Source: Deltaproteobacteria bacterium (GTDB taxonomy: Bacteria; Desulfobacterota; Desulfobaccia; Desulfobaccales; Desulfobaccaceae). From it: a DNA stretch of 44,798 nt. This document shows, piece after piece, positions 26,281 through 34,549 of this stretch. The stretch is taken from NCBI GenBank assembly GCA_019309545.1, contig JAFDGA010000016.1, positions 1 to 44,798 of the forward strand. The letters are read 5' to 3'. The notes beneath the pieces are model-generated. The model was not told the origin of the DNA and did no database searches. It saw nothing but the letters and a program-made list of their open reading frames with translations. How positions within the stretch are numbered: position 1 is the stretch's first letter; each line of letters opens with the position of its first letter. The position numbers and the translations under genes are program-made.

Positions 26281-27420
26281 ATGGAAAAGCCCATGGGCAA
26301 TTTTAGGTTTAACCGGCTGGGCAGGTTCCTCTTCACCCTGGTGGTGGCGTCGCTGCTAGGCGGATGTGAATCGCAGACAGAATCAATAAGCCAGCAGGTC
26401 CAAAAGCAGCCTCCCACCACCATTGCCCAGATCGTGGCCATGGTGATCCCGGCTGTTGTTCATATCCAGGCGATCCAGGGGTCGGCGTCCTCGGAGCACC
26501 CCTCTTCTTGGTCCAAATTATTCGGCTTTTCCAAGCCTTTTGAGGATTTCGGCAGTTCGCCTGCTTTCCCTCAGCGGACCCAAGGCTCGGGTTTTCTGAT
26601 TGATTCGGAAGGACACGTGGTTACTAACCACCATCTAGTGCATCAAGCCCAGGACCTGGTAGTGACCAGTTGGCAGGGTAGGCAGGTCAAGGCCCGGCTA
26701 ATCGGAGGCGATGCCCCGACCGATCTATCTTTGCTTAAGCTGACCGAACTTCTGCCCGAAGTTTCCTATCTTGATTGGGGTGATTCGGATCAAGTGCAGG
26801 TCGGCGACCGGGTCTTGGCTCTGGGCAACCCTTTCGGGCTGGAAAATACCGTCACCATAGGTATTATCAGTGCCAAAGGACGCATCATTGGCGTCAGCCC
26901 TTATGATGATTTTCTTCAGACTGATGCCGCCATTAATCCGGGCAATTCCGGGGGGCCGTTGGTCAATCTAAGGGGCGAAGCAGTAGGCATCAGTAATACT
27001 ATTTATGGCCGGGGGCAGGGAATCGGTTTCGCTATTCCCAGCAGCCTGGCACGTCACATCGTGGACCAATTAAAAGTGCAAGGCCGGGTGGTGCGCGGCT
27101 TTCTGGGAGTCATTGTTCAGGAGGTGACCCCTGAATTAGCCGCTTCTTTTGGCTTAAAGGAGCCAAGCGGGGCCTTGGTGGGAGAAGTCATCCCGGAGAC
27201 GGCCGCGGCCCGCGGTGGTGTCCGGCGCGGGGACATCATTCTGGAATTTGATGGGCACCAGATTCAGAAGATGAATGAATTACCACGCCGGACTGCCCTG
27301 ACTCCGATCGGCAAGCAGGTTAAGCTTAAGGTTTTCCGGAATGGTCAACTCCTGGCCCTGAGCCTTCGGGTTGGGGAAATGCCCCAAATGGTGGCGGATA
27401 AAACCCTGCCTGAGGACTGA
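26281..27420 (+). CDS. HtrA/DegP-like serine protease, lipoprotein
   Basis: Envelope quality-control protease of 379 residues. An N-terminal signal with lipobox SLLGGC (C29) points to a lipid anchor. The trypsin-like domain has H118 (TNHHLV), D148 (TDLSLLK) and S223 (INPGNSGGPL), and one PDZ domain follows (about 280-375). DegP has two PDZ domains, so this is closer to DegS/HtrA in layout. A Ser/Pro/Phe-rich insert sits at about 66-100 before the protease core. It ends 18 bases from a convergent gene with no terminator seen. Confidence 0.93.
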   Translation: MEKPMGNFRFNRLGRFLFTLVVASLLGGCESQTESISQQVQKQPPTTIAQIVAMVIPAVVHIQAIQGSASSEHPSSWSKLFGFSKPFEDFGSSPAFPQRTQGSGFLIDSEGHVVTNHHLVHQAQDLVVTSWQGRQVKARLIGGDAPTDLSLLKLTELLPEVSYLDWGDSDQVQVGDRVLALGNPFGLENTVTIGIISAKGRIIGVSPYDDFLQTDAAINPGNSGGPLVNLRGEAVGISNTIYGRGQGIGFAIPSSLARHIVDQLKVQGRVVRGFLGVIVQEVTPELAASFGLKEPSGALVGEVIPETAAARGGVRRGDIILEFDGHQIQKMNELPRRTALTPIGKQVKLKVFRNGQLLALSLRVGEMPQMVADKTLPED

Positions 27421-27438: not shown

Positions 27439-27639
27439 TCACAGATCGACAATCATTTCGGCTTCATTGCCACACTTGCTACAAACTACGGTCCGCTTAA
27501 CCTTTTGCGGCTGGGGTTCTGAGGTCGGCGGCGCTTCCGGGGGCACGACTTCCTCGCATTTAATGGTCATCTCGCCTTCACTCCCGCAGTTTTCGCACAT
27601 GCATACCATGGTTTTCTTGGGTTCCAATTTGGCCTCCAT
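27439..27639 (-). CDS. Small double zinc-ribbon protein
   Basis: A 66-residue protein of two related halves: CENCGSEGEM (from C15) and CSKCGNEAEM (from C53), each a Cys-x2-Cys knuckle followed by Glu-x-Glu-Met, joined by a Pro/Glu-rich linker. The four cysteines could bind one metal ion. I do not recognise a family. It starts 25 bases downstream of the EncFtn-like gene on the same strand, so the two are probably co-transcribed; an iron- or redox-linked role is inferred from that only. The initiation codon could also be the internal Met11. Confidence 0.7.
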   Translation of the reverse strand: MEAKLEPKKTMVCMCENCGSEGEMTIKCEEVVPPEAPPTSEPQPQKVKRTVVCSKCGNEAEMIVDL

Positions 27640-27664
27640 TAGTTAAGATTATGGTGGGTTATGA

Positions 27665-27961
27665 CTAATCTTCTTCGATCTCGGTAATGTCTTTTTCCGT
27701 AAACAGATAGGTTTTTAGTTCATGGGCAAACCGGTCGTCATGACGACGGATCCATTCCAGGATCATGGCCGCATGTTCCTTTTCCTCATCCCGATTATGA
27801 GCCAGAATTTTCCGCAGCGCCTCATCCTCGGTAGCGTCAACCCGTTCCTGGTACAACTCTACCGCTTCCAGTTCTTCCATCAGCGATAAGATCGCCCGAC
27901 GCAGGTCTCTGGTCTTGGGGGTCAGCTTCTCAAAAGGTTCACCATGTCCCTCGTAGGCCAT
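27665..27961 (-). CDS. Encapsulated-ferritin-like (EncFtn) protein
   Basis: A 98-residue two-helix ferritin-like protein. The core SLMEELEAVELYQERVDATEDEALRKILAHNRDEEKEHAAMILEWIRR closely follows the encapsulated ferritin of Rhodospirillum rubrum, whose ferroxidase ligands (E32, E62, H65) map to the ELEA glutamate and the DEEKEH glutamate and histidine. Such proteins oxidise Fe(II) as ring-shaped decamers. Known members carry a C-terminal peptide that loads them into an encapsulin shell; this one ends at ITEIEED with no such tail, and no encapsulin gene is adjacent. GGAGG before ATG 27961 supports the start. Confidence 0.88.
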   Translation of the reverse strand: MAYEGHGEPFEKLTPKTRDLRRAILSLMEELEAVELYQERVDATEDEALRKILAHNRDEEKEHAAMILEWIRRHDDRFAHELKTYLFTEKDITEIEED

Positions 27962-28264
27962 TATTCTTCCTCCATATTTAAAAGTTCAGATCTGAAAAGT
28001 TTTTTACTCCAAGCTCTAAGCCGATGCAGTTCGGTAAAGTCCTTGTTAAAATAAACATTGATTATGGAATGTCAACCGGTCAAGCGGATCTGGAGGCGCT
28101 GATTTTTAAAGATTTCCGAATCACATAATGTTATATTCAATTGCTAAAATCTTGGACAACTTTCTGATTAAGGATTCAGGAGTAAAATTACCGGGTCATC
28201 AAGAATCTTGCCTGGAGTGGGATAATCGCCCCAAAAGCCTAAGCACCTCTGAGGAGGGGAAAAA
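27962..28264. other. Divergent intergenic region, EncFtn-like to nitroreductase
   Basis: About 300 bases without a credible gene. It holds the minus-strand promoter (28048-28075) and the palindrome at 27985-27996. A 74-codon open frame at 28128-28352 overlaps the nitroreductase start, has no ribosome binding site and no recognisable content, so it is not called. A clear promoter for the nitroreductase was not found. Confidence 0.5.
28048..28075 (-). promoter_or_regulatory. Promoter of the EncFtn-like/zinc-ribbon operon
   Basis: Minus strand TTGACA (28070-28075), 16 bases, TATTTT (28048-28053), giving a leader of about 80 bases. A perfect 12-base palindrome TTCAGATCTGAA (27985-27996) lies within that leader, a possible regulator site. 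Confidence 0.6.
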
Positions 28265-28834
28265 ATGGAACTATACGAGGCCATTAAAAATCGCCGCAGC
28301 CATCGGCTCTATAAGCCGGACGCTATTCCCCGGGAAGTCTTGGACCGGGTGATTGAAGCGGGGTTATGGGCCCCTTCGGGAACTAATTTACAGCCGTGGG
28401 AAATAACGGTAATGGCTGGCGCTATTCGGGATCAGTTTGTGTTGCTGTGCGCCAAGTCGATTGATCATGTTATGCCCTTGCTCAAAAAGCTGTTTACCGA
28501 AAAGCAGCAAAAATTCACGGCCCAGTTTTTTAAGAATCTGGGCGGGGCGCCGGTGGTGATTGCGGTCACCGTGTGGCGGGAAGAAGACCCCATGCATCGT
28601 ATGGCCATCATCCAGAGTGGCGCGGCCCTGATGCAGAATCTGCTGTTGGCGGCCGAGGCCGAGGGTCTGGGGACCTGCTGGATGACCGGGGTGCTGTATG
28701 TCGAGAATGAGTTGCTGTCTTTTTTGGGAAAAGAAGATCGCCAATTGCTGGCCATCACTCCGATCGGCTATCCGGCCAAATCGCCCCCAGTGCCGCCCCG
28801 CAAAGACCGGGAAGTACGCTGGCTAGGATTTTAG
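28265..28834 (+). CDS. Nitroreductase-family FMN oxidoreductase
   Basis: NAD(P)H-dependent FMN enzyme of 189 residues. Seen: the N-terminal MELYEAIKNRRSHRLYKPDAIPREVLDRVIEAGLWAPSGTNLQPWEITV, which binds the FMN phosphate and ribityl chain, and the C-terminal AEAEGLGTCWMTGVLYVENELLSFLG. Substrates vary widely in this family (nitro compounds, quinones, flavins), so no exact reaction is claimed. GAGGAGGGG before the ATG is a good ribosome binding site. It diverges from the EncFtn-like operon. Confidence 0.92.
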   Translation: MELYEAIKNRRSHRLYKPDAIPREVLDRVIEAGLWAPSGTNLQPWEITVMAGAIRDQFVLLCAKSIDHVMPLLKKLFTEKQQKFTAQFFKNLGGAPVVIAVTVWREEDPMHRMAIIQSGAALMQNLLLAAEAEGLGTCWMTGVLYVENELLSFLGKEDRQLLAITPIGYPAKSPPVPPRKDREVRWLGF

Positions 28835-28945: not shown

Positions 28946-29998
28946 ATGACTGATAAAGGCAAACGGCCTCTGCTAGAACAGGTGCGGGCGGCGGGCTGAG
29001 CTGCCAAGGTTCCTCCCGGGGAATTGGAGGAAATCTTGAAAAGCTTGCCCCTGCAGGCCCATCCGGATCTGTTGGTAGGTCTGGAATGGGCCGATGATGC
29101 CGGCGTCCTCCGGTTGACGCCGGAGCTCGCCCTGATCCAGACGGTGGATTTTTTTACGCCGATCGTCAATGATCCTTATACTTTTGGCCAGATTGCGGCG
29201 GCCAATGCCCTGAGCGATATTTATGCCATGGGAGGGCGGCCGATCACCGCCCTGAACATTGTCTGTTACCCGCGGCAGACAGTGCCCCCCGGGGACCTTC
29301 AGGCCATCCTGGCCGGGGGGCTGGATAAAATCCATGAGGCCGGAGCGCTGCTGCTCGGCGGCCACAGTGTCGAAGACCCGGAACTCAAATATGGCTTGGC
29401 GGCCACCGGGGTGGTGCATCCGGACCGGGTGTTGACTAACGCCGGAGCACGCCCCGGGGATCAATTAATCCTGACCAAACCGTTGGGTACCGGCATCATC
29501 TCCACTGCTCTGAAGGGGCGGCTGGCCTCTCCGGAGGCGGAAGCCGCCATGATTGAGGTCATGTTGGCCCTCAACAAAACGGCGGCGGAATGTCTGGAGG
29601 GCCTGGCGGTCCACGCCCTCACCGATATCACCGGCTTCGGCTTGCTCGGGCATGGCCTGGAGATGGCAGTGGCTAGCCGGGTGGAGCTGACGTTTTATGC
29701 CGCCCAGGTGCCGATTCTGGCCCCGGCCCTGGAATATGCCGCACTCGGGCTGGTACCTGCCGGCAGCCATGCCAATCGCCGTTTCTGTGAATCGTGCCTA
29801 GAGATCGCCCCAGGGATCGACCCCCTGCTGGTGGACATCTTAAGTGACGCCCAGACCAACGGCGGCCTAATGATTGCCGTGGCCCCCGATCAGGCTGATA
29901 TTCTCCTAGAGCGCTTAAAACAGGCGGGGGTAACGGCGGCGGCCTGGGTCGGGGAAGTAACCGCACATGGAAAGGGCAAATTACGACTTCAGGGCTAA
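28946..29998 (+). CDS. selD: Selenide, water dikinase SelD, selenocysteine-containing
   Basis: Makes selenophosphate from selenide and ATP, the selenium donor for Sec-tRNA and 2-selenouridine. Translating in frame from ATG 28946, codon 18 is TGA (28997-28999) in [19 protein letters not shown], exactly where SelD has its Cys/Sec followed by the essential Lys. Reading through gives 350 residues, the normal SelD length; a conventional caller would begin at TTG 29024 and lose the active site. The rest has DDAGV, the nucleotide-binding SDIYAMGG and [19 protein letters not shown]-like hairpin lies 6 bases after the UGA. ATG 28943 is an equal start option. Sec decoding needs selA, selB and selC elsewhere in the genome. 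Confidence 0.92.
29006..29037 (+). promoter_or_regulatory. Putative bacterial SECIS hairpin in selD
   Basis: TTCCTCC (29010-29016) pairs with GGAGGAA (29026-29032) around the loop CGGGGAATT. An outer AAG/CTT (29006-29008 with 29035-29037) extends the stem past a small internal mismatch. The hairpin starts 6 bases after the UGA and its apical loop carries Gs near the start, as SelB-recognised bacterial SECIS elements do. Confidence 0.7.
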
Positions 29999-32551: not shown

Positions 32552-34549
32552 TTATTTACTGTCCAGAACAAAAACTCCCTGCCAGTCCGGGGGCGGGGGC
32601 AGGTGCTGATATTGCTGGCAGCGCTCTAAATAAACCATGGTGGGCGAATCTGTTGGTTTGAGGCGGAGCACTTCCTGAAAGCACTTTTGCGCCAAAGCCC
32701 ACTGGCCATGGCGATAGGCAGCCCGGCCGGAAGCAAAAATCAACAGCCACTCCGGTTCCTCCTCAGCGCGGTAATCCAGTAGTTCGTAGATGGCCGTGGG
32801 GTGGCTTCGACCTTTGACCAGGATCAGATCCACTTCCCGGATCAGGAAGCGGTGGGCTACCTGCCGATATGTGGCTTCGCTCAACAGAATTTCAGTTCCA
32901 TATACCTTATTTACCCCTTCCAGTCTGGAAGCCAAATTAACGGTGTCCCCCATAACTGTATAGTTGAAACGTCTCCGGGAACCGACATTACCTGCAATCA
33001 CCAGTCCAGAGTGCAGTCCCATCCGGCAACTCAACCGGGGCAGGCCGCGGGATTCCCAGACCTCCTGAAGCTTTTGCATCGCCCGGTGCATTTCCAAAGC
33101 TGCCTCACAGGCAAGGCTGGCGTGGTTGGGGATCGGTAGGGGTGCGCCCCAGAGGGCCATAATAGCATCACCAATATATTTATCCAGGGTCCCATGATGA
33201 GTTAAAATGATCTCGGTCATGGTGGAAAAGTGTTCGTTTAATAACTCAATCAAGGCACTGGGGGGCATTCCTTCCGAGATGCTGGTGAATCCGGCCAGGT
33301 CAGAGAACAATACTGTAACCTCAACCTCCTCTCCGCCTAAACGCAAGCGGTCGGGGTGAGAGCTGATCACTTCTATAAGGGAATCAGATAAATAACGGGA
33401 AAATGCTTGTCGCAACCAGCGTTTTTCTTTAGCTACCACCAGATAATGGCACAGGGCATTAGCGGTATAAATAATCGCTGCCCCGAAAGTTAAGAGCAGG
33501 GGTGGAACAAAGTAGGTCTGGTATAAAAATAGATAGATTGAACCGCCCAGGATCAAAGCGCAGAGCGCGATTAAGACCCCTAATCCGGCCAGCGGAGGGA
33601 ATCGCGCCAACAGATAGGCGGAAATTAACAAAATTACCAGATAGAACCATACCCGGCCGGAGGCCGACAACTCCCGCCCCCACTGGCCGCTCAGGAGGGT
33701 ATGGATGATCTGTCCATGGATTTCCACTCCGGACATCAGTTGGCCGGTAAGTGAAAAATAAGGTGTATAAAAGGCATCGGCCTGAGCCTGCGGGGTGACC
33801 GAGGCCTCCAGCATCCGGCCGACCAAGACGATGCGGCCCCGGATTCGCTCCGCGGGCAAGGGATGATCGGGGTCCAACACCTGATAAAAAGACACTGTAT
33901 CAAGGCTACGGGGAGGGCCGACATAATTAATCAGCCCGGTAAGCTCCGGGGACAGGGACCGTTGGGGTTGATAAGATTGAGTTGCCACCGCTGACAAAGT
34001 TTTCCGGTTTCCTATCCGGAGCTGAAAATGGCGTACCACTCCGTCAGGGTCTGGAGTAATCATCTCCAATCCCACTCCGGTGGCGGCCCGGCGAAAAGGC
34101 TCCAGAGGCTGTACCATAATCCGGCGATTAAAACGGGGGTCGCGGGTGACCTCGATGGTTTCTCCCAGGACTACATTGCCGGCCTGGCGGATGGCCGCAG
34201 CTAGCAATTGGTCATCTTCTGGAGTGGTGGGGTCAGCAAAGAGGATATCAAAGACGATCAGGCCAGCCCCGGCCGCGTTTAGCCGTTGAATCAGCGTGGC
34301 ATGGAGGCGCCGAGGCCAAGGCCAGGACTGCCCTAACTCCTGGAAGGAGGCCTCATCAATGCCAACAACGAGAAGGTTCGAGGGTGGAGGTAAAGGGGAA
34401 CGCCACTGGTAACAGAAGTCCAGGATCAAATTTTCTAAAAACTGTCCCCAGGGCAGAAAGCTCAGGGGCGCGATCAAAAAAAAGGTCAGGAGACCCAACC
34501 CGAGAGTTCGCCCAGTAGCCCCCCGAAGCCATTTAGAAATAGAGGGCAA
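32552..34549 (-). CDS. CHASE2-domain class III adenylate cyclase
   Basis: Membrane sensor that makes cAMP. The 665-residue protein has an N-terminal helix, a large extracytoplasmic CHASE2 domain (about 35-295, starting LLVVGIDEASFQELG), three hydrophobic helices (about 300-370) and a cyclase domain (about 405-590). Metal aspartates are in LFSDLAGF (D417) and KYIGDAIM (D461); substrate residues K457 and D535 (YTVMGDTVNLASR) fit ATP rather than GTP. N538 and R542 are present, so it should be active as a homodimer. A TPR-like tail follows (ALAQKCFQEVLRLKPTD). The start codon is TTG behind AAGGAGG with a long spacer. Confidence 0.93.
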   Translation of the reverse strand: MPSISKWLRGATGRTLGLGLLTFFLIAPLSFLPWGQFLENLILDFCYQWRSPLPPPSNLLVVGIDEASFQELGQSWPWPRRLHATLIQRLNAAGAGLIVFDILFADPTTPEDDQLLAAAIRQAGNVVLGETIEVTRDPRFNRRIMVQPLEPFRRAATGVGLEMITPDPDGVVRHFQLRIGNRKTLSAVATQSYQPQRSLSPELTGLINYVGPPRSLDTVSFYQVLDPDHPLPAERIRGRIVLVGRMLEASVTPQAQADAFYTPYFSLTGQLMSGVEIHGQIIHTLLSGQWGRELSASGRVWFYLVILLISAYLLARFPPLAGLGVLIALCALILGGSIYLFLYQTYFVPPLLLTFGAAIIYTANALCHYLVVAKEKRWLRQAFSRYLSDSLIEVISSHPDRLRLGGEEVEVTVLFSDLAGFTSISEGMPPSALIELLNEHFSTMTEIILTHHGTLDKYIGDAIMALWGAPLPIPNHASLACEAALEMHRAMQKLQEVWESRGLPRLSCRMGLHSGLVIAGNVGSRRRFNYTVMGDTVNLASRLEGVNKVYGTEILLSEATYRQVAHRFLIREVDLILVKGRSHPTAIYELLDYRAEEEPEWLLIFASGRAAYRHGQWALAQKCFQEVLRLKPTDSPTMVYLERCQQYQHLPPPPDWQGVFVLDSK

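Follow-up and report, generated by a model that had tools for sequence, protein, structure and literature searches.

The encapsulin-type ferritin (EncFtn) of R. rubrum (Rru_A0973; PDB 5da5) is known to oxidise iron, and without an enclosed compartment it accrues no mineral alone (PMC5012862). Among encapsulin-type ferritins, a short class that is known but has received little study is the s-FLP, in which a 2024 review (PMC11202242) placed Nitrosomonas europaea NE0167 as a class of its own, short and without targeting peptide. The s-FLP were first classed as non-encapsulated, NE0167 was solved as a decamer, and the review left the question of encapsulation open. The structure of NE0167 (PDB 3k6c) is unpublished and represents a tail-less decamer. 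Also known is an operon of rubrerythrin, RFO (Fe-S oxidoreductase) and DUF3501 that has been linked to oxidative stress (PMC5114695); a search of that paper for the term 'encapsul' found no occurrence.

The locus described here lies in a stretch of 44,798 nucleotides, which as a whole is called the window, and consists of two minus-strand genes situated between htrA and a nitroreductase gene (Table 1). The locus itself is ordinary, with a new s-FLP member beside a small protein that is most likely unrelated to it.

A tail-less encapsulin-type ferritin

The 98-aa product of the first gene scored well above the cut-off of PF22277 (127.8 bits, E=1.4e-37; cut-off 27) and just above that of TIGR04535 (127.7 bits; cut-off 125), and is by its sequence a true EncFtn. 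Using an alignment to the R. rubrum EncFtn with an offset of two residues, the ferroxidase centre was assigned to E30, Y37, E60 and H63 (R. rubrum E32, Y39, E62 and H65) and the entry site to E29 and E32 (R. rubrum E31 and E34), all of which are kept, and the first-pass annotation was hence right in reading a preserved EncFtn core with its ferroxidase residues. The protein ends in ...DITEIEED and the targeting peptide is absent. A search of PDB sequences identified NE0167 as the closest solved protein. Since PMC11202242 names the s-FLP class for NE0167, the tail-less form counts as already described, and the window EncFtn is a new member of this class.

Across three congeneric genomes the EncFtn gene is under strong purifying selection (dN about 0.03-0.06 vs. 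dS about 0.45-0.8). Taken together, the EncFtn gene and its small neighbor gave dN values of 0.03-0.10 vs. dS values of 0.45-0.86 in the same three congeners, and both genes are real. The EncFtn family tree was built from 96 columns only, leaves many forks unresolved and contains one row (L139) with a runaway branch; the three rows of the genus cluster in it, and a wider grouping with rows from Aminicenantota and Bacillota was not firmly supported.

Table 1. Positions of the genes and sequence elements of the window that are discussed in the text.
Feature	Position	Strand	Remarks
htrA	26281-27420	+	Flanking gene
Six-cysteine zinc-ribbon-like microprotein, 62 aa (probable start)	27439-27627	-	Start via alignment with congeners; separate family
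Mechanical ORF of the microprotein, 66 aa	27439-27639	-	
s-FLP (tail-less EncFtn), 98 aa, probable ferroxidase	27665-27961	-	PF22277 and TIGR04535; nearest solved relative 3k6c (NE0167)
Promoter-like TTGACA-N16-TATTTT	28048-28075	-	Upstream of the EncFtn gene; consensus scan
Nitroreductase	28265-28834	+	Flanking gene
selD, listed ORF	29024-29998	+	
CHASE2-adenylate/guanylate cyclase protein	32552-34549	-	

Terminator and promoter scans of the locus remained at chance level. The promoter-like element upstream of the EncFtn gene is weak alone because the consensus scan gave one match vs. 1.3 expected by chance; it falls within an upstream stretch conserved in the three congeneric genomes, in which AATCAATGTTTAT and most of TTGACATT are kept.

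Two further observations were made in the window. The listed start of the selD ORF is probably wrong, since the frame continues upstream through a TGA at 28997-28999; this TGA lies in a stretch with the SelD motif, a stable hairpin (-20.1 kcal/mol) comes after it, and the window selD appears to encode a selenoprotein. A CHASE2-adenylate/guanylate cyclase protein is encoded further downstream.

Shell genes and the distribution of the tail-less form

The genome of the window (99% complete) was searched for encapsulin genes elsewhere, as the first-pass annotation had advised. No match was obtained for family-1 encapsulins (PF04454), nor for family-2 encapsulins (PF19307), the latter search having matched no control genome, though it did give a match in one genome among the 27 that were covered. 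The same two models identified no encapsulin in two congeners. The earlier description of the EncFtn as lacking both a cargo tail and a shell gene was therefore borne out.

Among the 80 best relatives of the EncFtn in GTDB genomes, read to their stop codons, 78 are tail-less with lengths of 94-101 aa; these are the closest relatives, selected by similarity to a tail-less query, and this number therefore does not tell how frequent tail-less forms are among EncFtns in general. The two exceptions are one tailed protein (L033) and one that is masked at its C terminus (L025). Of 83 genomes encoding a tail-less EncFtn (76 from the GTDB loci and seven from the phylum of the window, many of them incomplete bins), 78 lack family-1 encapsulin and five have it, so that the majority of the s-FLP genomes examined offer no family-1 shell into which the s-FLP could be loaded. 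This comparison is modestly useful because the 2024 review left the encapsulation of s-FLP open.

A shell gene directly adjoins the tailed EncFtn in all three genomes in which a tailed EncFtn was readable: in two of these genomes (G110 and G145) the shell gene immediately follows the EncFtn gene, the product of which ends in ...GSLGIGSLK..., and in L033 a shell gene is likewise adjacent. One Thiohalocapsa bin (G467) carries both forms, a tailed EncFtn adjoining an encapsulin (L139) and a separate tail-less EncFtn gene (L069).

Two alternative explanations can be weighed against these distributions. The window EncFtn could be loaded into an encapsulin via an unrecognised short C-terminal signal, and encapsulation of s-FLP is called theoretically possible in PMC11202242; we consider this very improbable given that neither encapsulin family was matched in the nearly complete genome or the two congeners, and that family-1 encapsulin is missing from the great majority of the tail-less genomes. 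Alternatively, the gene could encode a degenerate EncFtn, now decaying after the loss of tail and shell, as might be expected in a genome without a shell gene, but the strong purifying selection, the intact ferroxidase residues and the short form being the common form among relatives leave this with hardly any probability. The free-standing EncFtn ring proposed by the first-pass annotation is, in view of the missing tail and the missing shell gene, the probable form of this protein.

The six-cysteine microprotein and its genomic context

The second gene had been annotated as encoding a 66-residue zinc-ribbon protein with two Cys-x2-Cys-G knuckles. The gene as such stands, and the protein is probably 62 aa long with six conserved cysteines. 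A TTG start at 27627 is favoured because it aligns with the ATG of both congeners and is preceded by GGAGG, as in all three genomes, and because the earlier ATG chosen in the first-pass annotation overlaps the GGAGG. The dN/dS ratio among the three congeners was about 0.08-0.12. In 14 aligned members C9, C11, C14, C24, C49 and C52 are invariant, following the pattern C-x-C-x2-C-G...C...C-x2-C-G, and G15, E17, G53, E55 and D61 are also shared; the protein has two similar halves. The structure model contains four strands, as a zinc ribbon would be expected to, at low confidence (mean pLDDT 58). The likeliest reading is that the cysteines bind metal.

Searches against Pfam, NCBIfam and PDB sequences gave nothing at cut-off and only sub-threshold matches to assorted CxxC proteins, and naming the microprotein by means of these databases was dropped. 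The small CxxC zinc-ribbon families TIGR04272 and TIGR02605 (FmdB-type) resemble it in being short proteins with paired CxxC motifs, but they scored below threshold and the six-cysteine pattern is the microprotein's own. The family to which it belongs is a separate and wider one. Members of about 58-66 aa occur across the phylum, presumably Desulfobacterota (L096-L105 and L123-L134).

The first-pass annotation had suggested the zinc-ribbon protein as a possible partner or redox sensor of the EncFtn, the two forming an undescribed iron unit. In the form of a genus-specific two-gene unit, in which the microprotein would bind zinc or iron and serve the EncFtn ring as redox partner, metallochaperone or regulator, this is consistent with the two genes being on the same strand and adjacent in all three genus genomes and with both being under purifying selection. 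However, the block from pnp to tyrS, which includes the pair, is syntenic in these three genomes (G000-G002), so that the adjacency amounts to one observation and not three, and the intergenic gap varies widely, from 37 nt in the window to about 150 in G001 and 110 nt in G002, the microprotein gene always being downstream.

The distribution of the two genes also argues against a unit. When 59 relatives were searched, members of the sister genus g2 (G003-G005) and of another family of the order, f2 (G008, G009, G013 and G022), were found to encode the microprotein, which there has other neighbors (e.g., phosphoglycerate mutase, CbiM, peptide deformylase, and amino-acid permease), whereas close EncFtn relatives were restricted to the three genus genomes. 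Among 395 genomes sampled from the phylum, the microprotein is encoded in 31, a close EncFtn relative in eight, and both in only two (G000 and G001). A profile search for the microprotein yielded no matches in 40 GTDB s-FLP genomes and in four further s-FLP genomes of the phylum (G222, G234, G345 and G374). Given the microprotein without EncFtn and s-FLP genomes without the microprotein, the pair is a feature of one genus (g1), and the two-gene unit appears very unlikely. The absence of the pair outside the genus is the outcome that the first-pass annotation had itself named as contradicting its proposal, and its claim of an undescribed system fails also on the s-FLP having been named in PMC11202242. 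Most likely the microprotein is an unrelated neighbor and the pair is not a new two-gene system; it would be a member of an unrelated Desulfobacterota family that came to lie downstream by chance in the genus.

Putative function and comparison with known systems

We consider it likely that the short tail-less EncFtn assembles with metal into a ferroxidase ring that stands free and renders Fe2+ and peroxide harmless, with the microprotein as an unrelated neighbor. The two-helix subunits would most likely assemble into a ring-shaped decamer upon Fe2+ binding, with ferroxidase centers formed between subunits by the residues assigned above and with the two entry-site glutamates. Free in the cytoplasm and without an encapsulin shell, the ring would oxidise Fe2+ using O2 or peroxide. 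Detoxification rather than bulk iron storage is the putative role, because the open ring has no storage cavity. The genome of the window gave no match over cut-off to the Ferritin family and three matches over cut-off to rubrerythrin, and contains no clear classical ferritin, bacterioferritin or Dps.

The genomic context of the 80 relatives was consistent with such a role. In 14 loci (L020, L021, L024, L026, L027, L048, L055, L067, L073, L075, L076, L077, L082 and L093) the s-FLP gene is flanked by RFO and DUF3501, with a rubrerythrin gene seen upstream in 13 of them, and in one other locus (L043) the s-FLP gene directly follows rubrerythrin. This context supports a putative role of s-FLP in detoxifying iron and peroxide without a shell. 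With about a sixth of the s-FLP genes in a known peroxide-defence operon, the function becomes testable. Tentatively, s-FLPs as a class might be shell-free ferroxidase rings of peroxide defence that act together with rubrerythrin-type partners (RFO and DUF3501) if in the same operon and alone in organisms such as that of the window, a generalization that we regard as possible but somewhat doubtful.

The aerobic-type rubrerythrin-RFO-DUF3501 operon (PMC5114695) is related to the present case in that some s-FLP relatives lie inside it, but this arrangement was found in other phyla and is not the context of the window EncFtn. With R. rubrum Rru_A0973 the window EncFtn has the EncFtn core and the ferroxidase residues in common, but it has neither the C-terminal targeting peptide nor an encapsulin gene. 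The most similar known protein is NE0167, which was the best PDB match (93 residues, 117.7 bits), is likewise tail-less (95 aa vs. 98 aa) and has identical ferroxidase residues; it differs in belonging to another phylum, in lacking the three extra C-terminal residues of the window EncFtn, and in the microprotein neighbor, which is exclusive to the genus of the window.
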